A stretch of 36,872 nt of DNA from NCBI GenBank assembly GCA_009838845.1, contig VXRD01000135.1:1-36872 (forward strand), written 5' to 3'. The position numbers and the translations under genes are program-made. Below, one piece after another: positions 22,392-36,413 of this stretch; position 1 is the stretch's first letter, and each line of letters starts with the position of its first letter. This stretch comes from Gemmatimonadota bacterium. Its GTDB lineage: Bacteria > Latescibacterota > UBA2968. Below the pieces are notes generated by a model, which ran no database searches, was not told the origin of the DNA, and saw nothing but the letters and a program-made list of their open reading frames with translations.

Positions 22392-23549
22392 TTATTGACT
22401 ATCCGAGACGGGGTAAAGGGTTAGTCGCGCTCTCTTCCCCGCGCCTTCATCGGAAACGATTAGCGTGCCGTCCGCGGCGAAGGTAATACCTTCAACCTGA
22501 CGATGCCACTGGGCGGGAAACTCTCTGACTGCAACAACCTGGCCACCCGGCGTGATCTCCGCGATAGCCCCCTGACGCGCAGCTACGATAAAGTAATTTC
22601 CCGACATCGGGTGTCGCTCGATTCCCGAAGGCTGGAATTTTTTTCCTTTGATGTGTTGAGAGAATTCATCGACAGATATTGCGATATGTGCATCTTTTTT
22701 TAGCTGTTTCTCGTCAATTGACCAGTGATATACTGCCAACTTTCCCTCCATGTCTGCGCTGCGAGCGTCCTTGCACATCAGTAAGAGTGCCCGCTGGCTC
22801 TCGTCGTATGCCAGGCTCTCGATTTCGCAGTCTCTGCCGACGCCAGTCGTATAGACATTGAAGAGAACGGACTCGCCAGCAGTTCCCTCACGACACGCGT
22901 ATAGTCGCCCTGAACTCGTGACCAGATAGATCTGGTCGTCAATTGTTGCAATGCCCTCAAAATCACTGGCAACCGGGTTCTTCATATCCGATAATTGGAA
23001 TGATTTTACGATTGACCCTTTCTGATAATCGATCTCGAAAATGACCCCTCTTTCATCATTGTGCGCCAGAAGTCGGTCGTCTCTGGTCATTGCCAAACCA
23101 GAGATCTCTTCAAGATACGTGGGGAGCTTCCAGTGCGTCGCGGTCTCTTCGTTTAGTGTATAGCTCTCAAGAGATATTTTCCTTTGTAATACAGCCATTG
23201 TGTCCGCCAGAGGGCGAACGCTCGAAGTATCGTCTGACGGATTTCTACTAAAATCTGAGGATGAATCCTCTTCATAGTCTAATACAGCCATTGTGTCCGC
23301 CAAAGGGGAGACGATAGAAGTGTCTGAAGCGGTCTCTTCGTTTGGTGTATAGCTTTCAGGAGATATTAATACCGCCATCGTGTCCGCCAAAGGAAGGACG
23401 GTAGAAGTGTCTAAAATAGAAGTATCTGTATCTGCGTTTGACGAATTTCCACTAAAATCTGAGGATGGATCATAGCCCATCGACAACAGGTAGAGAAGAA
23501 TGCCAAAACCAAGGAAGCCCAGCAGAAATTTATCTGTGTGATTCTTCAT
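22392..23549 (-). CDS. Membrane-anchored SdiA-regulated-type beta-propeller protein
   Basis: This 385-residue protein starts with a membrane anchor or uncleaved signal (KFLLGFLGFGILLYLLSMGY). A repetitive acidic linker of about 115 residues follows, with three copies of PLADTMAVL. The C-terminal part (about 140-385) has beta-propeller repeats of the SdiA-regulated / esterase-like-phytase type, with LEEISGLAMT, ASDFEGIATIDDQIYLVTSSG, QPSGIERHP and RQVEGITF. Family function is uncertain; extracytoplasmic phosphoesterase or ligand-binding roles have been proposed. I used the ATG at 23549; a TTG at 23555 is possible. A TATAAT lies a few bases upstream of the ATG. It is the last gene of the kinase-like/barrel block, 71 bases after the DUF4956 gene. 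Confidence 0.75.
   Translation of the reverse strand: MKNHTDKFLLGFLGFGILLYLLSMGYDPSSDFSGNSSNADTDTSILDTSTVLPLADTMAVLISPESYTPNEETASDTSIVSPLADTMAVLDYEEDSSSDFSRNPSDDTSSVRPLADTMAVLQRKISLESYTLNEETATHWKLPTYLEEISGLAMTRDDRLLAHNDERGVIFEIDYQKGSIVKSFQLSDMKNPVASDFEGIATIDDQIYLVTSSGRLYACREGTAGESVLFNVYTTGVGRDCEIESLAYDESQRALLLMCKDARSADMEGKLAVYHWSIDEKQLKKDAHIAISVDEFSQHIKGKKFQPSGIERHPMSGNYFIVAARQGAIAEITPGGQVVAVREFPAQWHRQVEGITFAADGTLIVSDEGAGKRARLTLYPVSDSQ
23186..23475 (-). repeat. Composite internal tandem repeats encoding PLADTMAVL units
   Basis: Three near-identical DNA units encoding PLADTMAVL begin near 23188, 23281 and 23368, so the periods are 93 and 87 bases. Two companion segments are also duplicated: one coding ESYTxNEETA (near 23146 and 23333) and one coding SDFSxN (near 23240 and 23446). 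The high DNA identity points to recent duplication. Confidence 0.85.
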
Positions 23550-23620
23550 GTGCAATTATACCGTTATGAGTATGCCTGCCAGACCTTTCCCGGTGACAGG
23601 GAGGCTTTAAGATACCAATT

Positions 23621-24532
23621 TTAAACTTTAGTCAGCGTTGCGTTTGTGATACTTTTTTTGCTTTTTTCAATATCCTGGATGAGGGAAGGCAGATCGACGG
23701 ATTGTTTTAACGAAACATCATACACAACGATGGCCGTTCCATCTTCTTTCTCGATCACATCTGCTACTTGCCACTGTTTGGTCCCGGATTTCAGGATTTG
23801 AGCTGTTGCTTTTTGCGCTGTTTCGACCTTCGTTGTGTGTACTTCAATCCGGGCATCATAGGAATTCCCGGTGGCCTTTGTCCCAGAGGTCTGGACCGAG
23901 TGATCAGGTGAAACAATTCTCCAGCCGGATAGTACTGGTGGCTGCGCGCCATAATTGATTTTCCACACGCCGAGTGTTATGGTGACGAAAGCCAACGATG
24001 CGAGGTAGGCCACAGTCGTAAGCTGGGTGCCAGCCGCCAGCCCTATCCCGATGACCATAAACATGTACACACCCTCTATGGTCGATTTGAGTGAGAGCCG
24101 AAAGGTGACAGCGGCCACGATACCCGCCAGACTGAACGCAAGGGCAAGACTACCCTTCACCAAAAAAACAACCAGTGAGATGGCGACAGGTATCACGAGC
24201 AGAGTTTGTACAAAGGCTTGACTGTATTTCTTGGGCGGATGCGTCCAGGCATATACCCAGGTAATAGGGAGGGTAACCCCGAAGGCCAGTACCAAAGCGA
24301 CTACAACTGGAATCGTGTGTTCCGGATCGGCGAGCCGATTTACCCCTTCCTGGATGTTTCCAAGCGGAATGGGCGGATCGGCCCCGGAGTCAAGGGATGA
24401 TCCTACAAAGATGCGTTCTCGCTCCTGGGCGACGTAATAGAGAATTTCGGGGAATATGTGAAAAATCGCGTTGAGAATCAAAAGCCACGTGATATAGTAA
24501 ATGGCGAGACGTATGATGATGTTGTTGAGCAT
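23621..24532 (-). CDS. DUF4956 family membrane protein
   Basis: This 303-residue inner-membrane protein has about five hydrophobic helices (near 5-28, 73-96, 107-125, 130-150 and 160-187). The DUF4956 hallmark SLALAFSLAGIVAAVTFRLSLK is present. A soluble C-terminal domain (about 215-303) resembles a small ferredoxin-like fold. The ATG has a strong AAAGGAGG site 5 bases upstream, and the gene starts 18 bases after the barrel-fusion gene, so the two are in one operon. Family function is unknown. From memory, DUF4956 genes elsewhere often sit next to CotH-like kinase and VTC (polyphosphate polymerase) domain genes. That would fit the kinase-like neighbours here. Confidence 0.85.
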   Translation of the reverse strand: MLNNIIIRLAIYYITWLLILNAIFHIFPEILYYVAQERERIFVGSSLDSGADPPIPLGNIQEGVNRLADPEHTIPVVVALVLAFGVTLPITWVYAWTHPPKKYSQAFVQTLLVIPVAISLVVFLVKGSLALAFSLAGIVAAVTFRLSLKSTIEGVYMFMVIGIGLAAGTQLTTVAYLASLAFVTITLGVWKINYGAQPPVLSGWRIVSPDHSVQTSGTKATGNSYDARIEVHTTKVETAQKATAQILKSGTKQWQVADVIEKEDGTAIVVYDVSLKQSVDLPSLIQDIEKSKKSITNATLTKV

Positions 24533-24550: not shown

Positions 24551-27268
24551 CTAAAACATAAAACCAGCGCGCAGATATACGCCCGTCAGGTCATCGCCTT
24601 TTACGATTGCCGCGCTAAAGGTCTGCTGGCGCTTGAGAAAAGACAGCCAGATTCCACCTCCGATACTGGTGTGCCATTTATCGGCATTGTCCGGATCTTT
24701 GTCATAAATTACCCGGCCGGCATCAGCTATACCGAACAATCCGAATTCTCCCGATACCAGCAGCTTGATTTTTGTCAGGACCAGTCGCAGTTCGGAATTT
24801 CCATACAGCGCAGTCTCTCCAGCGAACCTGTTTTTCCGGAAACCGCGCAAATTGCCGCTGGATATGCCACTACCGACAAAACCGGATCCACCCAGAAAGG
24901 CACTTTCGTGGAAGGGAAAGGTTCCCCATACCTTCTTGCCTCCTGCTCTTAAGGCAAGGGTGGGGGTAGTCGGAATAGGGGCTGTCAGGTAAGTACTGGC
25001 TGCCCCATCTATACTGCCAAAGGTCGATTCTACATCCCAGACGCCCGGATAGATGTCTCCGGCAACCCTGACCCTGATCCCCTGAGTGGGATACCCCAAA
25101 CTGTTGCGCGTGTCGTACGCGACTTCACCCAGTGCGCCTACCTGACCGAAGGAATCTGTACCGTAAAGTGGTTGATCGAGCGAACCGATATATTTTTCCC
25201 GATTGGAACTGAGTGGTGTGTTTGAATACTTGATAATCGGCCCAAAGTCAATGGTTAATTTCGAGCGGAGCGATCCCATACCAACATGAGGCATATCTCC
25301 TTTATGATCTCCCGCTCGAAACTCGAGGGCAGGTGCGAAAACGAAATGTCTTTGTTCCACCTTATAGAAGGAAGATGGACGCAGAATTTCCGTTTTGTTA
25401 CCGAATCCATTGAACCTGATTGTCTGGAACCCGGAGTACTTTAAGTAGATTCTCGCGTCGAAGTCGCGCATGAATTCGCGAAAGTTTCCGGTATAGGAGG
25501 CAAAAGGCTTGATACCCTTGAGATCATTGTCTTTCGCCAGCCCGATCTTGAAAAAATGTTGCGAAGAGAAAGGGTCTTTTCGATACCCGAAATGCTGACG
25601 ATGGTAGGTCGCCCCCAAGAATACATCCATATCCGGGTTTACCCTGATAATCGGAGCAGTAGCAGCCTGCCCGCCCCAGTCCAGTGCATACCTTGCGCGG
25701 AGAAGCCGGGCGGGAGGTCGCTTGTAGGGTCGTTCGTCGATTTTCGCGCCCTTGCCTTTGGCGAACTGATTTTTTCCACGATAATCATAAAACCGGGTTT
25801 TTGATGCACCAGACTGGGATGAGTTTGTGAGCGCGTCATCCCCACCGCCACCATCAATGCGAACGACAATCTGTCCCTTTGTCCCCGATATTTCCGCGTG
25901 GTCATCTCCGCCCCGGAGATATATTCGGACTTCCCGGGTTTCCTGAGGGTGGAAAGTTCTTTGGAAATAGGGTGTCTTCCTTTCTCCTCCAGTACCTTCT
26001 ATCAGACCGATACGGACTGCGAGATCACCGTTCGGCAGGTGTTCACACTGGGCGTATTCGTCCTTATCGGTTGCCTGGATTTCGACCTGGCGGGTAATCA
26101 ATTCATAGTATCTGCTGGCAAATTCAGGCAATGCGTCTCGCCTCGATTTGAGGGCTTGGGTAAGCGTTTCCCCAATCATTTTGTAATACGGTGGTGGAAG
26201 TCTCCGCACGGCATTCTCGATAACCTGGTCGGGCAGGTCCTTTCGAAACGCTGTTACTACCGAATCCCACGCGGTCTTATTGAGTTCGGACAGAAACTCG
26301 CGGTCCATCTCCCAACCCGTGGTCGATAGACCCACCAGGCTTGGATATTTGTCTCCGAACGTGATTTGTCTGGGGAGCCTTTTGCGCGCCATTGCCATGG
26401 CAAACCCCTTGAAGCCGATAAAAGCCTGGTCGCGATCTTCGGGTATTGTAAGCCATGTATAACAATCGCCATCGGGGAATTGCGCCCATCTCCACTGGCC
26501 GTAATGCCGGTCCTTGTCGCCGATGAAAAGATCCATCAGTTTCGCCTTTAGATAGGCGCGGGCATCGACGCGGTTGCAAGGACTTTCTTCAAGGTGTTCC
26601 CACAGCCTCTCCGTTCCGCTGATCCTCCGGGAACCCGCAAAGCCGGGCGTATCGTCCGGCCCTTCAGACGGGTGTTCTTGTAGCGTTCCTATAAGGCCGG
26701 CAAACTCTTCGCGGTACTCTCCCAGCCCTGGATCATCCGGAATGACTACGAGTGTGTGCTTGGAATGGAGGATACCAGTGGCTTCCATCAGCGGATCAGC
26801 CACGAGTGCCCCTGTTGGTAGAAGCGCGCTGATCAAGTCCTGGAGGACGTCATCTACGATCGTATCCTTGAGTTCGTCCCATATTCTTTTGGTGGGATCT
26901 TTATCCAGGGAGCGGACCGTATAGCGGCGGCCGTCTTCCCCTGTAAAGTGAAGCGAGATAGACTGCCCGAATCCGCCGGTGCGAAGCGGTGTCAAGCCAC
27001 CTCCTACGCTGTTGAGGTCGAGGACTGAAACCTCGATAGGAGTGGTCCAGAGGTCCCGGTTATTGCTGCCGTAGAACCAGCGTTTGAACCCGCTGGCCCG
27101 GAATCTTTCTCCTGGAATCACCATGTGGGTCTTAGCACCTTGCGGAGGGATAGAGCGGTGAATCCTGTATCCTGGTGGCGGTGAATCCTCCTCAGATGTG
27201 GATTCTGCCGGAAAAGAAAAAGCGAACACCAGCAAGAGTAAAATGGCGTTCCATCTGGAAAATATCAT
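24551..27268 (-). CDS. Exported kinase-like domain fused to outer-membrane beta-barrel
   Basis: This 905-residue protein begins with a signal peptide (about 1-22). Residues about 110-300 resemble an atypical kinase fold. YTVRSLDKDP (116-125) has the layout of a nucleotide-lysine strand, followed by a helix (VDDVLQDLISALLPTGAL). GDKDRHYGQWRW (250-261) is catalytic-loop-like, with D253. IPEDRDQAF (275-283) is DFG-like, with D278 and D280. A middle beta-rich region (about 430-540) holds GGDDH and GGGGDD turns. The last 350 residues or so are a BamA/TamA-type barrel with LRGFRKNRF and a terminal Phe. An AAAGGA element precedes the ATG. Related proteins elsewhere are usually annotated only as BamA/TamA-family barrels. 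Kinase activity is inferred and untested; the usual catalytic-loop Asn is Gln258. Confidence 0.75.
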   Translation of the reverse strand: MIFSRWNAILLLLVFAFSFPAESTSEEDSPPPGYRIHRSIPPQGAKTHMVIPGERFRASGFKRWFYGSNNRDLWTTPIEVSVLDLNSVGGGLTPLRTGGFGQSISLHFTGEDGRRYTVRSLDKDPTKRIWDELKDTIVDDVLQDLISALLPTGALVADPLMEATGILHSKHTLVVIPDDPGLGEYREEFAGLIGTLQEHPSEGPDDTPGFAGSRRISGTERLWEHLEESPCNRVDARAYLKAKLMDLFIGDKDRHYGQWRWAQFPDGDCYTWLTIPEDRDQAFIGFKGFAMAMARKRLPRQITFGDKYPSLVGLSTTGWEMDREFLSELNKTAWDSVVTAFRKDLPDQVIENAVRRLPPPYYKMIGETLTQALKSRRDALPEFASRYYELITRQVEIQATDKDEYAQCEHLPNGDLAVRIGLIEGTGGERKTPYFQRTFHPQETREVRIYLRGGDDHAEISGTKGQIVVRIDGGGGDDALTNSSQSGASKTRFYDYRGKNQFAKGKGAKIDERPYKRPPARLLRARYALDWGGQAATAPIIRVNPDMDVFLGATYHRQHFGYRKDPFSSQHFFKIGLAKDNDLKGIKPFASYTGNFREFMRDFDARIYLKYSGFQTIRFNGFGNKTEILRPSSFYKVEQRHFVFAPALEFRAGDHKGDMPHVGMGSLRSKLTIDFGPIIKYSNTPLSSNREKYIGSLDQPLYGTDSFGQVGALGEVAYDTRNSLGYPTQGIRVRVAGDIYPGVWDVESTFGSIDGAASTYLTAPIPTTPTLALRAGGKKVWGTFPFHESAFLGGSGFVGSGISSGNLRGFRKNRFAGETALYGNSELRLVLTKIKLLVSGEFGLFGIADAGRVIYDKDPDNADKWHTSIGGGIWLSFLKRQQTFSAAIVKGDDLTGVYLRAGFMF

Positions 27269-27323: not shown

Positions 27324-29564
27324 TCAAAACGCAAATCCGACTGAGGTATAAATCCGGATATCCTTTTCTTCTGTACTCACAATATCAACGCGAATGGGAC
27401 CTAAAAATGTTGTGCTGATATAACCACCAATACCAAAACCGTGGATACGGGTATTGGGCTGATCCGGATTGGAAGACATATTGTACAGGCCGCCCTGATA
27501 GAAAATTCCAACAGCACTGAGCGGTATGGATCCCCAAAATTTCATGTGGCTCCAAATAGAAATGCCCGCCGATACGAACCTGAAAGCCCGCAGTTTGTCG
27601 CGTTTGAGACCGACAACGCGCAATGCTGTGTTACTAAAGTGTCCTGCACCACCTAATGCGAAGTGTTCATAAATCGGTGCAGGCTGTGTCATATAGCCTC
27701 CGTGAGACCAGAGGCTCACACTCAATTGCGGATGGGGGCTGGTGAAGTACGCGAGTTGCGTTTGCACCTGCTTATGTGAAAATGTCCGATGAACCCATTT
27801 TGCTTGCGTTTGAAAATAGATGCCGTGTCTTGTCAAAAACGCATCGTCTCGGGTGTCAATACCTGCAGATAGCCACAAGGCGGGCAGATCTTTAGACGCA
27901 TTGCCTATTGAACTGTCCGCATCGCGAATGCGGACATGCTCGACTTGATACCCCACTTTGAAACCTCCCCAACTGTGGAACAAAACCTGCATGCCCAATC
28001 GCGCGCGAAAACGCTTCTCGTTATATGTGTCCTGGTGTTGCCCATTTTGAAAATACAACCGATCTTGATTCCAACCCTGAATCTCCCCGAAGAAACCCAG
28101 GCGCCTGGATGAGCGAAAAATTAAATCCATTTCAGCAAGCTTCAAATTGCCCAACAGGCCGCGAAAATAAAACTCTGCTACGGGGCCATAAGCATTTTGA
28201 TGTGCAAACTCGGTCAGTGCCGCAACCCCAAAATCATTGTCGTAATGAAGTCCTATTTTCAACTCACTGGGGGGGTTTTCAAGTACCTGAAAAACCAGTT
28301 CGGTATAGTCTTCATGGTAGATAACCTCGTAATCTACCGTTTGAAATAATCCGGTCGCATAGAATCGGCCAGATTCGTTTTCCAGTTTCCGAAACGATAT
28401 CGGCTTATTGACAAACTTTTCCAACCGCGATGTAAATACCTCTTGTGAATAGCGCTCTAAACCCTCAATCCGAACCCGGTCAATTACAATATCCGATGGT
28501 ATATCTACCCAGGTTCTGAAATCAAAATCATCTGGCAATATCGACGGTCTCGATTTTTCGACACGCTTTGAAATTCCGAGCGTTTGCAGAGCCTTCCAGA
28601 TCGCATCCAGATGTTTTTCGGCTTCTTTTTCACCAATTGGGATCAAGGTATATGACAGATTAAAATCGCCTCCGTCAAATTTTTTTAAATCGGGCATGAT
28701 CAGCACATGGGCGAGTTTTCGATTTGCGATTTTTTTTTCTTCAATTCGAAAACTAACAGCCTGATCAATGACGTCGATAATATCTTCAACTTCGTGCTTT
28801 TGAGTGCGCAAAGGTGTGGCACAATCCACGGCAATAACTAAATCAGCCCCGGCGTCTAATGCGACATCCACAGGCAAGTTATTGACAATGCCGCCATCTA
28901 CGAGATGGGTTTGTTCTGTACTTATCGGCGCAAACACCCCGGGAACAGAAATACTCGCTCTGATTGCCGTGCCGAGCGAGCCATTTTTAAGCACGACCTG
29001 TTCGCCAGATAAAATATCTGTTGCTATTGCGCGGAAAGGCGTTGGCAGCCGATCAAAATCGTTTCGCGCCCGATAAATTGCGCCAAGGGTCAATTGATTG
29101 AGAAAATGCTGAATTTTTTGTCCGGCAAAAACCCCATAAGGTAATTTCAGGTTCAACTTATCGAGGCGCAATGCAAGCATCTGGCGATCAGCTATTGGTT
29201 TGCGATTCAAATTCGACAGACGACGGTTGGGGTGATTATTGGTTATTTCCCACCAATCTGTTCCTACAATAATGCGTTCGACATTATCAACAGAATATCC
29301 GGCAGCGTACAGTCCTCCCACCAGAGCGCCATAACTTACGCCCACGATCAAATCAATGGGTATGCCTTCGCGCTCGAGCACGCGCAACACGCCGATATGT
29401 GCCCCGCCACGCGCGCCTCCCCCACTGAGCACCAGTGCGACTCGGGGCTTCTGTTTTGCAAAAGCAGGAAGCGTGATAGACAGGGCAAAACCGAAACACA
29501 ACAAAAAAACAAATAGGCTTTGAACTATGCCGCATTTGATTGCGTATAACCTTTTGCCTGTCAT
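27324..29564 (-). CDS. Patatin-like phospholipase with POTRA and outer-membrane barrel (type Vd autotransporter-like)
   Basis: This 746-residue protein has a signal peptide ending AFA (about residue 36). The patatin domain holds the oxyanion loop GGGARG (48-53). The nucleophile elbow is GVSYG with Ser77, and the catalytic Asp is D223 in DGG, forming the Ser-Asp dyad. A POTRA-like region lies near 350-430 (IDRVRIEGLERYSQEVF), then a barrel of about 300 residues ending in VGFAF. This is the PlpD/FplA architecture, in which the lipase is delivered to the surface. I chose the ATG at 29564 because it starts the signal peptide; earlier codons overlap the preceding gene by 53 bases. It lies 28 bases after the kinase-like gene. 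The Omp85 barrel encoded in the same block may help to insert it. Confidence 0.88.
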   Translation of the reverse strand: MTGKRLYAIKCGIVQSLFVFLLCFGFALSITLPAFAKQKPRVALVLSGGGARGGAHIGVLRVLEREGIPIDLIVGVSYGALVGGLYAAGYSVDNVERIIVGTDWWEITNNHPNRRLSNLNRKPIADRQMLALRLDKLNLKLPYGVFAGQKIQHFLNQLTLGAIYRARNDFDRLPTPFRAIATDILSGEQVVLKNGSLGTAIRASISVPGVFAPISTEQTHLVDGGIVNNLPVDVALDAGADLVIAVDCATPLRTQKHEVEDIIDVIDQAVSFRIEEKKIANRKLAHVLIMPDLKKFDGGDFNLSYTLIPIGEKEAEKHLDAIWKALQTLGISKRVEKSRPSILPDDFDFRTWVDIPSDIVIDRVRIEGLERYSQEVFTSRLEKFVNKPISFRKLENESGRFYATGLFQTVDYEVIYHEDYTELVFQVLENPPSELKIGLHYDNDFGVAALTEFAHQNAYGPVAEFYFRGLLGNLKLAEMDLIFRSSRRLGFFGEIQGWNQDRLYFQNGQHQDTYNEKRFRARLGMQVLFHSWGGFKVGYQVEHVRIRDADSSIGNASKDLPALWLSAGIDTRDDAFLTRHGIYFQTQAKWVHRTFSHKQVQTQLAYFTSPHPQLSVSLWSHGGYMTQPAPIYEHFALGGAGHFSNTALRVVGLKRDKLRAFRFVSAGISIWSHMKFWGSIPLSAVGIFYQGGLYNMSSNPDQPNTRIHGFGIGGYISTTFLGPIRVDIVSTEEKDIRIYTSVGFAF

Positions 29565-29592
29565 CTGATTCCCGACTTTGAAAGAATTGAAA

Positions 29593-31272
29593 CTACTCCT
29601 GTCGATCAACCCGTACAATCTGATATAGCCCGACATTCCATACAAAAAAATAAACCCGAACGTATTTATCTGCCCATCCAGACCTCACGGTCCGAATCTC
29701 TATCCCGTAATATTGTCCATCCGGCAAGTCGCGTGGTATGGGTATGTGTCCTGACGTATCGAGTTGACGCACAGCACCCTGCGCCTTTCCATCGCGACTC
29801 AAAAATTGATAAAAATACCGGGTCTCTGCTTCAGTAGCCAGATTTCCCACAATCGCCAGATCTTCAAAATGCAATCCTCGTCTGTCAATCCAAAAGCGAT
29901 CCAGCGGATTTATACGTCGAAACCAGTAATCGCCCACCTTATCCCGGCGTGCAATCAAAAGTCGAATGAGTCTCTCTTCAGCCTTCTTGTCGCTCAAATG
30001 CCCTGTCTTCACAATAGCTGCCAAATCCGCATCGCTAAACGCCATTGCGATTTTTGCCCCCCAGTACCCATCGCGATTTGTACACCGCTGAAAAGCCGGA
30101 TTGGGATAATTGGTAACCCACCGCCTGGGCGAAAATACATCGCTCTCCAAATAACCAATTGATGGAAAATGTATGGGTTTTGCATCTTCCCACGCCTTTC
30201 GATACAGCCCCAGCCCCAAAACAGATGGGACAATATAGCGAAAATCGACAAAATACTCATTTCCTGACTTAGGCGTGTGAGGCCGCACCGAACGACTACC
30301 CAAAGTCGCGTCCATATCGATCAAATAGTGTTTGATATATTGACGTCCCTGTTCATCAGTCACAAACATATTCAGGGTGTTGGCCGCACGTCGATCTACA
30401 TCATTGATCCACGAAGAGATCGCTCGCAACCCCCGTAACTCCCTTCGATGCTGGTGTTTCACGCGATCATTGGGGTCGTCTTTCCGCCGACTGTGAAAAT
30501 CAAAAACACCGAGCGGAATACCCGTTAATCTCTTGCTTGCCAGGCATCGGATATACCCGTTGGCTTGTTTCTCAATAGAAGACAGTACATTTTGCAAGTC
30601 TGCATCTGTCATGTCCTTGTGTCTTCCCTCATCATCAGATACCTCAGCCTCAGGGCCAATGGTAAGCCATTCTGCGCGAAAAAAAACAACGGAATTTTGC
30701 GGCACATGATAGCCCGCAGCATACAGAATTTTTGTCGATACAACCTCGGCAGTTGTCGCCAACTCCTCATAACCTTTTGCGTCAAACTTTAAAAAATAAA
30801 TATCTCCTTTTGCGTCCCGAATTGTAAGCTCAGGCACCTGGCCCTCTAATTTTCCCGATATAATCTCCCATGAACCGCTCGTATCTGGATGCGCGTGCCC
30901 CGGTCCTTTGGCCAACGCCGCAGCATCCATCCGCACAAGAAAATGCCGATTCGTGTACCAAGATGAATTGGGTACTTCATCCAGCACATTGACATTATCT
31001 GCCTGACGAGATGGCGCAATATTCAGAATATTCCCAACCCGCCGCGCACTCCGTCCCAAATCCAGTTTCTTAGTCATTGGATAAACAAAAGAGTGATCGA
31101 CCATGTCCCATATCAGATTCCTTTTAATTACTTTGGGTTGAACAATACTGCGATTGTCGGGATCAAACCACTTGATTGGCGCAGTCGATAAATGGTGGTC
31201 GATCGCTTCAGCCTCGACGGCAACACAGGCCATAAGCACCCATACCCACAATTTATTTAAATCCTTTTTCAT
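29593..31272 (-). CDS. Exported protein with atypical-kinase-like (HipA/CotH/Fam20-type) motifs
   Basis: This 559-residue protein has a signal peptide (about 1-23, ending AEA). It shows the order expected of an atypical kinase fold. A lysine strand IYFLKFDAKG (K162) precedes a helix carrying E176 in TTAEVVSTKIL. A catalytic-loop-like WINDVDRRAANTL has D293 and N298 five apart. A DFG-like YLIDMDATLG has D319 and D321. No outer-membrane barrel is present, so it is probably periplasmic or a surface lipid-associated protein. The ATG at 31272 has an AGGGAAG element about 10 bases upstream. It follows the Omp85-type barrel gene by 23 bases and precedes the patatin-barrel gene by 28. I do not recognise a named family. 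If active, it would need nucleotide outside the cytoplasm, as proposed for CotH. Confidence 0.7.
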   Translation of the reverse strand: MKKDLNKLWVWVLMACVAVEAEAIDHHLSTAPIKWFDPDNRSIVQPKVIKRNLIWDMVDHSFVYPMTKKLDLGRSARRVGNILNIAPSRQADNVNVLDEVPNSSWYTNRHFLVRMDAAALAKGPGHAHPDTSGSWEIISGKLEGQVPELTIRDAKGDIYFLKFDAKGYEELATTAEVVSTKILYAAGYHVPQNSVVFFRAEWLTIGPEAEVSDDEGRHKDMTDADLQNVLSSIEKQANGYIRCLASKRLTGIPLGVFDFHSRRKDDPNDRVKHQHRRELRGLRAISSWINDVDRRAANTLNMFVTDEQGRQYIKHYLIDMDATLGSRSVRPHTPKSGNEYFVDFRYIVPSVLGLGLYRKAWEDAKPIHFPSIGYLESDVFSPRRWVTNYPNPAFQRCTNRDGYWGAKIAMAFSDADLAAIVKTGHLSDKKAEERLIRLLIARRDKVGDYWFRRINPLDRFWIDRRGLHFEDLAIVGNLATEAETRYFYQFLSRDGKAQGAVRQLDTSGHIPIPRDLPDGQYYGIEIRTVRSGWADKYVRVYFFVWNVGLYQIVRVDRQE

Positions 31273-32942: not shown

Positions 32943-35900
32943 TCATCCTTCTTTGCCAAAGGCGTTGGCAAAGATCAGAAAATCGCTCATACCAATGCTG
33001 CCATCCCCATCCAGATCATACCGCGCGTCATATCCTGCATCACCTTGAGTTAGTCCGAAATAATCTACAAATAGCAAAAGGTCGGAAATACCAACAATGC
33101 CATCGCCATCGAAATCGGGCGATGGCGTCTGGGATTGTATTGTGATATACGGCGACATATCCCACAGCAGAACCGTACCGTCTAAACTCCCACTGGCAAG
33201 CAGGCTGCCATCCCGACTAAAAGCGACGCTCCAGACTTCCGATAGATGCCCTTCAAGCGTCTGCTCAGGTCGTCCTGTAATGGCGTCCCATAGACGAATG
33301 GTGCGGTCCAAACTCCCGCTGGCGAGTATGCTGTCATCCGGGCTGAACGCAATGCTCCGGACATCATCCGTATGCCCCTGGAGCGTCTGCTTGAGTTGTC
33401 CGGTTGTAACATTCCACAGGCGGATGATGCCATCTGCATCCCCACTGGCGAGTGTCTTCCCATCTGAGCTGAATGCAACGCTCCAGACTGCCGACGTATG
33501 CCCTTCGAACGCGTTTAAGGGCTGTTCGCTGGTAGCATCCCACAGACGAATGATGCCGTCTGTACTCCCACTTGCCAGTGTCCCATCTGGACTGAATGCG
33601 ACACTCCAGACATCCGCTTCAAGCCCTGTGATCCTCTTTAATAATTTTCCCGTGGTAGCGTCTCGAAAATCAATAGAACCACGAACATGGTCTCCACCTT
33701 TTCCAGCCGCGAGCATACTGCCATCCCTTGAGAACGCGACCGAAAAAATAAAAGGATCATATTTATAGGGGTCACTACCGCCGCCAAGGCCAAAGCCGAT
33801 GGTGATGCCCCCAATTCTAATGCCGGTGAGGCCGCCGCTGGTGTCACCAAAGCCGATGCCACCAATGCCGATTCCGATGCCAGAACCAGAGCCTCCATAG
33901 GATCTATCGGGCAGGCTCATCTTGTACTGTCCCGTGCCCCCATCCCACAGATGGATTGTTTTGCCAGCCACACTTGCGAGCGTTCTGCCATCCCTTGAGA
34001 ACGCGACGCTGCGGACTGCAGATGCATGCCCTGGTAGCCTCTTCTCGTGCTGTGCTGTATCCGCATCCCACAGATCAATTGAACCAGCCCAATTGCCACT
34101 GACGAGGGTGCCATCCTGGCTGAATGCGACGCTTCGGCCCAACCATTTATGCCCTGTGATCGTGTTCAATGGTCGTCCTGTAGCGCCCCATAGAATGAGT
34201 TCTTCTCCGCCTCCACTGGCGAATCGTCCATCCTGGCTGAACGCGACCTTTCGCACAGGCCACACATGCCCTGTGAGCCTCTGCTTGTGTTGCCCTGTGT
34301 CTGCATCCCATAAATCGATATTGCCTCCCCCAAAAAACTTTCCGCCGCCACTGATCAGCGTGTTGCCATCTGGACTAAACGCGATACTATAATAGTAGGT
34401 AGGCACTGGAGGAAAATCGGACTTTTCTAAACGTTGCTCTGTGCCTGTGGTGGCATCCCACAAATAGAGGTCGCCCTGGCGCATTCCCGGGAGAGTCTGA
34501 CTGGCACCGGCGAGTGTGCTACCATCCGGGCTGAATGCGACACTCCAGATTCCGCCTGCGCTTGGCCCCACCGGTTCGATCTTTTTCCTGTGCTGTCCTG
34601 TGGTCGCATCCCACAGATGGATGATACCACTAAGAAAAGATTTCCCAGCACTTGCGAGCGTGTTGCCATCCGGGCTGAACGCGATACTATTGACTATCTC
34701 CGCATTTCCAAACACATCCAGCGCAGTGAGCACTCTCAGGTGCTGTCCTGTGGTGGCGTCCCACAGGTGTATTGTACCGCCCTGACTGCCGCTGGCAAGT
34801 GTGTTGCCATTCTGGCTGAAGGCGACGCTACGGACCGCGGACCGATGCCCCGTGAGCGTATTCAAGTGCTGTCCAGTGGTTGCATCCCATAGATGGATTG
34901 TACCGTCCCAACCGCCACCAGCGAGTGTGCTGCCATCCGGGTTGAACGCAACGCTACGTACAGCAGACGTATGCTCCGTGAGGAAGTCGATCTCGGCACC
35001 TGTGAGTGCATTATAGACCCAAACACCGATGCCACTGCCGACCGCCAACCGCGTGCCATCATCCGAATACGCGATATCCAATATCCAACCTTTGCCCAGG
35101 CGTGCGGTTACGCCGTCGGGTAAATGCCATGTCCAATAATCACCGTCCCTGCTGCGTGGCACGTCAGGCGTTCCAGCAGTAAATATCACCAACTCACTTC
35201 CAGCAGATACCCTGATAAGGGTGTATGTTCCCGGACCGGGGCTAAGTGTAAGCGTCCGTTGTGCGCGGCCATTGGCATCGGTTGTTGCCTTTTCAACTGT
35301 GAACTGACCACTGAGCTTCCCCTCACCGGCGGTGACTGTAAAGGTGACTTGAGCACCTGGTAAAGGGTTCCCGTACTGATCTTGTACTTCAACGATCAGG
35401 GGGTTGGGCAACGCGGCACCGGGTGTGCCTTGCTGGTCATTGCCGGATATTATCGCCAACCCCGCAGGCTGTGGCTGAACCGCCTCAGCCACGTCCCATA
35501 GTTTGATCGTCTCATCCTCTGCCCCAGAAGCGACTGTCGTCCCATCGGATGAGAACGCCACCGAAAGAACCTCCTCTGTATGGCCTTCAAGAGTGGCGAT
35601 ATTTGTGCCCGTCGCCACGTCCCACAGCTTGACCTTTCCATCCTCTGACCCGGAAACGATGGTTGCAGCATCGGGAGAAAATCCCACAGAAGTTACGTTA
35701 TCCTTATGCCCTTCAAAGGTAACGGTATTTGTGCGCGTTACCACGTCCCACAGCTTGACGGTCTTATCATTTGATCCAGAAGCGAGTAGCGTGCCATCGC
35801 GCGAGAACACTACTGAAGTGACATTTCCCGTATGCCCTTTAAGTGTGATCGCGTTTCCCGTCGCCACGTCCCATAGCTTGATTGTGTCATCAAAAAACTC

Positions 35901-36413
35901 TGACGCGGTGGTAGCGAGGGTGCCATCGCGTGAAAACGCCACTGATTCGACGCCGCCATAAGGCGTCTCCTCAAGTATGGCGGTGCTCGTACGCGTTGCC
36001 ACATCCCACAGCTTGATCCCATCCCAGGATGCGGAAGCGAGGGTCTTCCCATCAGAGGAGAACGCTACCGATTCAAAATATTTCCCTTCAAGAGTAGCAA
36101 TATTTGTGCGCGTTGCCATGTTCCATAGCTTGATGCTATACAAAGACGCGGTGGCGAGAGTTGTCCCATTGTGAGAAAATGCTATAGCTTCAACGCCATA
36201 AATATTGTCTTCAAATGTGGCAATATTTGTGCGCGTCGCCATGTCCCACAACACAACCGTTCCATCCCTTGAACCAGAGGCAAGGATCGTCCCGTTGGGT
36301 GCAAACGCTACAAAATTGATCCGCCCCTTATGCCCTTCAAGGGTGGTTTGAGCGTGGCTGTTCTGTACGAACAAGATAGAGAGAATGAGGTTGAACAATA
36401 GGACCTTTTTCAG
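32943..36413 (-). CDS. Giant surface protein: three WD40 propellers, Ig-like domain, Ca-binding tail
   Basis: This 1156-residue exported protein has four parts. Seven WD40 blades (about 23-317) make one propeller. A Big-1/invasin-type Ig-like domain (about 320-415) contains VEVQDQYGNPLPGAQVTFTV. Fourteen more WD40 blades (about 435-1095) are enough for two more propellers. Two dockerin-like Ca loops at the end each have the D-x-D-G-D-G-x6-D spacing expected for a 12-residue site. A Gly/Ile-rich insert interrupts the 17th blade. I place the start at a CTG (36411-36413) because AAGGAGG lies 8 bases upstream and the result is a standard signal peptide (MKKVLLFNLILSILFVQ). The TTG at 36398 would lose the positive charges. 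Function is probably adhesion or scaffolding; partners are unknown. Confidence 0.85.
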   Translation of the reverse strand: MKKVLLFNLILSILFVQNSHAQTTLEGHKGRINFVAFAPNGTILASGSRDGTVVLWDMATRTNIATFEDNIYGVEAIAFSHNGTTLATASLYSIKLWNMATRTNIATLEGKYFESVAFSSDGKTLASASWDGIKLWDVATRTSTAILEETPYGGVESVAFSRDGTLATTASEFFDDTIKLWDVATGNAITLKGHTGNVTSVVFSRDGTLLASGSNDKTVKLWDVVTRTNTVTFEGHKDNVTSVGFSPDAATIVSGSEDGKVKLWDVATGTNIATLEGHTEEVLSVAFSSDGTTVASGAEDETIKLWDVAEAVQPQPAGLAIISGNDQQGTPGAALPNPLIVEVQDQYGNPLPGAQVTFTVTAGEGKLSGQFTVEKATTDANGRAQRTLTLSPGPGTYTLIRVSAGSELVIFTAGTPDVPRSRDGDYWTWHLPDGVTARLGKGWILDIAYSDDGTRLAVGSGIGVWVYNALTGAEIDFLTEHTSAVRSVAFNPDGSTLAGGGWDGTIHLWDATTGQHLNTLTGHRSAVRSVAFSQNGNTLASGSQGGTIHLWDATTGQHLRVLTALDVFGNAEIVNSIAFSPDGNTLASAGKSFLSGIIHLWDATTGQHRKKIEPVGPSAGGIWSVAFSPDGSTLAGASQTLPGMRQGDLYLWDATTGTEQRLEKSDFPPVPTYYYSIAFSPDGNTLISGGGKFFGGGNIDLWDADTGQHKQRLTGHVWPVRKVAFSQDGRFASGGGEELILWGATGRPLNTITGHKWLGRSVAFSQDGTLVSGNWAGSIDLWDADTAQHEKRLPGHASAVRSVAFSRDGRTLASVAGKTIHLWDGGTGQYKMSLPDRSYGGSGSGIGIGIGGIGFGDTSGGLTGIRIGGITIGFGLGGGSDPYKYDPFIFSVAFSRDGSMLAAGKGGDHVRGSIDFRDATTGKLLKRITGLEADVWSVAFSPDGTLASGSTDGIIRLWDATSEQPLNAFEGHTSAVWSVAFSSDGKTLASGDADGIIRLWNVTTGQLKQTLQGHTDDVRSIAFSPDDSILASGSLDRTIRLWDAITGRPEQTLEGHLSEVWSVAFSRDGSLLASGSLDGTVLLWDMSPYITIQSQTPSPDFDGDGIVGISDLLLFVDYFGLTQGDAGYDARYDLDGDGSIGMSDFLIFANAFGKEG
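33766..33905 (-). repeat. Gly/Ile-rich low-complexity insert within a WD40 blade
   Basis: The segment encodes about 45 residues of alternating Gly with Ile, Ser or Phe (for example GSGSGIGIGIGGIGFG). It is inserted between the D-A loop and core strands of the 17th WD40 blade. It is in frame and the blade resumes after it with FSVAFSRDG. Confidence 0.75.

Follow-up and report, generated by a model that had tools for sequence, protein, structure and literature searches.

CotH is a kinase of the Bacillus spore coat. The protein (family PF08757) departs from the usual kinase motifs yet keeps the equivalents of D166, N171 and D184, and its Trp245 is reported to stack on adenine (PMC12189002). Gene groups that combine CotH, a polyphosphate polymerase and DUF4956 have also been documented (PMC7112168). 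Enzymes fused to barrels of the Omp85 superfamily are known as well: they include the patatin protein PlpD and the 'Metallo' subfamily, which was described from a PF00149 domain and a barrel, with no middle domain mentioned in the excerpted account (Heinz and Lithgow 2014, PMC4104836). These fusions qualify the view, put forward in the original prediction for the gene presented here, that it would be unusual to find a phosphotransferase on an outer-membrane pore. We found no literature that treats CotH and Omp85 together, and none that describes the middle domain of 'Metallo' proteins.

The window, i.e. the whole 36,872-nucleotide stretch of DNA that was analysed, comes from an uncultured bacterium of the phylum Latescibacterota and encodes a 905-aa protein, P1 (positions 24551-27268, on the reverse strand, as are all features of the window given below), in an intact open reading frame. 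P1 combines a signal peptide, a putative CotH-like kinase-like domain, a beta-rich linker and an Omp85 barrel. The N terminus is signal-peptide-like and the C-terminal residue is Phe, as is usual in outer-membrane proteins, so the sequence predicts both export and barrel insertion. The kinase-like domain covers at most about residues 29-426 (25991-27184); its hhalign match to CotH spans about residues 75-391, and its helical C-lobe probably extends no farther than about this last residue. The linker (about residues 394-530; 25679-26089), with GGDD-type repeats and strands predicted at low confidence, occupies the site of the POTRA domains of BamA/TamA. The barrel (about residues 531-905; 24554-25678) bears an LRGF motif at residues 807-810, and its PF01103 match (residues 712-872) scores 26.1 bits against a gathering cut-off of 24, which places it in the Omp85 superfamily. 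The narrower label of a BamA/TamA-type barrel did not stand, as the Pfam scan found no POTRA match in P1 and TIGR03303 scored far under its cut-off; NF047779, on residues 716-905, was also below its own. No Pfam, NCBIfam or PDB family was recognised in residues ~30-500, and nothing matched the N-terminal 700 residues in these three collections, for Pfam and PDB even at E = 10.

The order of motifs originally predicted, YTVRSLDKDP, GDKDRHYGQWRW and IPEDRDQAF ahead of the barrel, was confirmed. YTVRSLDKDP (residues 116-125; 26894-26923) is a putative nucleotide-binding strand, aligned with the CotH strand and with the KFD lysine of a second family, P0002 (see below). Its description as a lysine strand is right as to the alignment with kinase nucleotide strands, but the Lys position is taken by Arg119 (R in 33/34 homologues, K in one only). 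GDKDRHYGQWRW (residues 250-261; 26486-26521) would be the catalytic loop, with D253 at the catalytic-Asp position and Q258 at the loop-Asn position. IPEDRDQAF (residues 275-283; 26420-26446), the putative metal loop, has the spacing of the CotH PxDxDxxF motif and is preceded by an aromatic residue, W272, six positions ahead of D278 (W in 29/34 homologues, Y in 5/34).

Conservation was counted over 35 distinct homologues, with identity down to 24%. D246, D251, W259 and W261 are invariant (35/35), H255 is conserved in 33/35, D278 and R279 in 34/34 and D280 in 33/34, and F283 is conserved as well. The predicted replacement of the loop Asn by Gln258 is a family trait (Q in 33/35, N in 2). D253 is D in 32/35 homologues, being kept in every Latescibacterota copy examined and replaced by G, S or N in three from Bacteroidota. 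Hence the four residues proposed for checking (D253, Q258, D278 and D280) are indeed conserved, although the catalytic Asp aligns with D253 while the invariant residue is D251. In one Latescibacterota homologue (L033, G020:C55) the segment after the nucleotide strand (about SLDKDPTK) is missing and the remainder is intact.

A profile of the P1 domain (A3), built from 14 sequences, was compared with kinase-like families of the same phylum, using column shuffling and profile reversal as controls. Against trimmed CotH it scored 53.1, a value reached by none of 140 shuffles (best of 60, 26.4; best of 80, 27.1) nor by the reversed profile (17.3). The scores were 39.6 for HipA-like proteins (best shuffle 20.1) and 36.9 for P0002 (reached by 0/80 shuffles); as a yardstick, the accepted HipA-CotH relationship gave 38.3 in the same test. 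In a ranking of 116 families, built from the fetched DNA and enriched in kinases by that selection, so that it serves as a specificity test and not as a survey of all protein space, the best non-self scores were those of CotH (44.6), HipA-like (31.2), P0002 (29.9) and PI3/4K-like (L111; 29.7) families; CotH alone stands clear of the best unrelated family (27.7), which the other three barely exceed. The HipA-like reference (L091) matches E. coli HipA structures, and the PI3_PI4_kinase family has a single match in the phylum.

In the CotH alignment, VRSLDKD pairs with the nucleotide strand and GDKDRHYGQW with the catalytic loop; PEDRDQAF coincides with the metal loop, where CotH members read PWDHDASF (the sequence paired with P1) or AYDFDRGF with equal spacing. 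The register and spacing of the catalytic loop, D-x4-[N/Q], are those of CotH, except that Gln replaces the Asn five residues after the Asp (N in two homologues). Several CotH members also have an aromatic residue six positions before the metal-loop Asp. Three short motifs alone would be little proof, but the CotH profile score and the conservation across the 35 homologues exceed chance, and by profile comparison the P1 domain and CotH share ancestry. P1 differs from CotH in lying under Pfam detection, in having Arg and Gln where kinases canonically have Lys and Asn and in its fusion to an outer-membrane barrel: PF08757 had no match at E <= 10 in 10 P1-family members, its Pfam gathering score not being reached. 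HipA and PI3/PI4-kinase-like proteins resemble P1 in their IGNxDRHxxNW-type catalytic loop, but score lower than CotH; HipA, moreover, is cytoplasmic, and we know of no HipA that is fused to a barrel.

P1 has matches at E <= 0.001 in 28/64 Latescibacterota genomes, and the domain itself is present in 22/64, the other six matches being weak and confined to the barrel. The domain is also carried by Bacteroidota plasmids at 24-34% identity; with at least two phyla in its family, the fusion is not a lone oddity. The homologues of Hymenobacter (1252 aa) and Persicobacter (L046; 1214 aa) consist of an N-terminal metallophosphoesterase region (PF00149, confirmed by alignment in the former and by Pfam in the latter), the P1 domain and the barrel. 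They thereby match the architecture of the 'Metallo' Omp85 subfamily, from which the Latescibacterota form differs in having no phosphoesterase; the window protein, in which PF00149 is absent, is not a member. The Parabacteroides homologue (819 aa) is likewise without phosphoesterase. In Hymenobacter monticola the homologue is 472 aa long and the barrel is absent; on this plasmid (L045, 4830-6477) the linker runs on in an overlapping small ORF, and the copy may therefore be a broken gene. Tandem P1 paralogues occur in several genomes (L011, L012 and L043). Searches of viral contigs and phages revealed no relatives.

Genus-wide, the gene order is patatin-Omp85, P1, DUF4956, SdiA/phytase-like propeller and sulfatase. 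In the window, the frequent neighbour on one side of P1 is a PlpD-like protein (27324-29645) made of patatin, POTRA (one match, below cut-off) and Omp85 parts. Like P1 it bears an enzyme domain N-terminal to the barrel, but that domain is a patatin lipase followed by POTRA, as opposed to a kinase-like domain without POTRA. On the other side lie two conserved neighbours, a DUF4956 membrane protein (23621-24532; PF16316, 45.3 bits) and an SdiA-regulated/phytase-like beta-propeller (22392-23555), a homologue of which overlaps the start of the Persicobacter P1 relative (L046). Farther along the window, a 677-aa ORF (915-2948) encodes an unusual fusion, in which residues 15-216 match GPP34 (the Golgi phosphoprotein 3 domain) and residues 422-664 match cytochrome P450.

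Other families of the phylum also keep the P1-DUF4956 pair. Among 38 DUF4956 matches in the 64 phylum genomes, 27 have a P1 gene no more than 5 kb away. A further eight are equally close to a VTC polyphosphate polymerase gene, four of these eight being also that close to CotH; three are near none of these genes. As 35/38 thus adjoin either P1 or VTC/CotH, DUF4956 apparently has two alternative kinase-like partners, and this link ties P1 to polyphosphate-related CotH loci. Neither a VTC polymerase gene nor PF08757 was found in the genome of the window. Genes for undecaprenyl-diphosphate phosphatase and PAP2 are located near two Hymenobacter homologues.

The window also encodes P0002 (29593-31275), which represents another kinase-like family; its N terminus is signal-peptide-like, and it has neither a barrel nor a match in Pfam. 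The nine sequences of the family, one of which reads DFG, all share K163, D294, D320 and, five positions past D294, N299; these correspond to the four canonical catalytic positions. Aligned with P1, K163 falls on R119 and D294/N299 on D253/Q258. Compared directly with CotH and HipA, the P0002 profile gave no significant score (of 80 shuffles, 14 and 5, respectively, did equally well), so the case for a kinase relationship is based on the P1 profile and the four invariant residues. P0002 is paired with P0003 (31296-32738), an Omp85 barrel without an enzyme domain (PF01103, 44.3 bits), whose gene it follows in seven loci of the phylum; at L057 and L058, where flanking DNA is present, no partner was detected. 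Since P1 lies near this pair, fused and split kinase-like/Omp85 combinations stand side by side in the window. Upstream of the barrel genes, a 1151-aa protein (32943-36398) contains about 17 WD40 repeats.

The P1 domain had no direct match among kinase HMMs or PDB sequences at E up to 10, and the AlphaFold models, built on a shallow alignment, reached a mean pLDDT of 37.7 for residues 29-530 and 30.3 for the full protein. Both results would suit an unrelated envelope domain, e.g. a lectin, a hydrolase or a barrel-assembly factor, in which the motifs follow one another by chance. The low pLDDT is probably due to the fact that just 14 close sequences were usable and, as the models were unusable, we infer the fold from sequence profiles; there, the four kinase-like families at the top of the ranking of 116, the shuffle and reversal controls, the motif register and the DUF4956 context make a non-kinase fold very unlikely. 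A domain of kinase fold might still be a pseudokinase: it would bind a nucleotide, a lipid or a protein and, with no phosphotransfer, would gate the barrel or serve as a scaffold for it. Such a role is suggested by Gln in place of the metal-binding Asn (33/35), Arg in place of Lys (33/34), the loss of D253 in three Bacteroidota homologues and the expected absence of ATP from the periplasm. On the other hand, D251 (35/35), D278 (34/34), D280 (33/34) and, in Latescibacterota, D253 form clusters that are usually lost in binding-only domains. Two homologues that have N in place of the Gln, and one that has K in place of the Arg, likewise speak against a pseudokinase, which we regard as a candidate, yet a rather improbable one.

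In Omp85 proteins of known structure, the N-terminal domains are located in the periplasm. This argues against a surface location of the P1 domain, in which it would pass through the barrel as a passenger and act on extracellular or host molecules. PlpD was initially described as secreting its patatin domain (as quoted in PMC4104836), but later work puts that domain in the periplasm (PMC11116518), and we consider the passenger role unlikely for P1.

On balance, and with moderate confidence, we interpret the N-terminal region of P1 as a diverged protein-kinase-like domain related to CotH, HipA and PI3K. In this reading it is exported, tethered by the Omp85 barrel and likely periplasmic, and passes a phosphate-containing group on to some component of the envelope in cooperation with DUF4956. 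The kinase-like assignment draws on the CotH and HipA profile scores, the motif register and the gene context; against it speak the Arg and Gln substitutions, the loss of D253 in the three Bacteroidota homologues, the L033 homologue devoid of its SLDKDPT segment, the lack of a direct HMM or PDB match and a periplasm in which no ATP is expected. In the mechanism that we propose, the signal peptide would export P1 and the barrel would anchor it in the outer membrane, with the domain most likely hanging into the periplasm by analogy with the patatin domain of PlpD. As its relationship to CotH suggests, it might then carry out this transfer to the envelope with the DUF4956 protein of the inner membrane as its partner, in a cooperation like the one presumed for CotH kinases in VTC/DUF4956 loci. 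The periplasm normally contains no ATP, and candidate donors would be polyphosphate or a lipid-linked pyrophosphate. Although this is speculation, non-ATP donors seem worth testing, given the undecaprenyl-diphosphate phosphatase and PAP2 genes in the neighbourhood of two Hymenobacter homologues and the polyphosphate polymerase with which DUF4956 is alternatively paired.

The architecture of P1 suggests a phosphate-transferring activity anchored in the outer membrane. More tentatively, outer-membrane-tethered kinases might constitute an unrecognised class, comprising the CotH-like-Omp85 fusions of Latescibacterota and Bacteroidota and P0002 as a split form. Such kinases would act in the periplasm or on the surface of the cell, with polyphosphate, for instance, as the donor instead of cytoplasmic ATP. 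If the kinase-like reading of P1 is true, phosphotransfer would join the enzyme activities borne by Omp85 proteins, and the middle domain of the 'Metallo' subfamily, so far without a name, would be explained. It would also raise the question of how a kinase-like enzyme works outside the inner membrane, with ATP in short supply.
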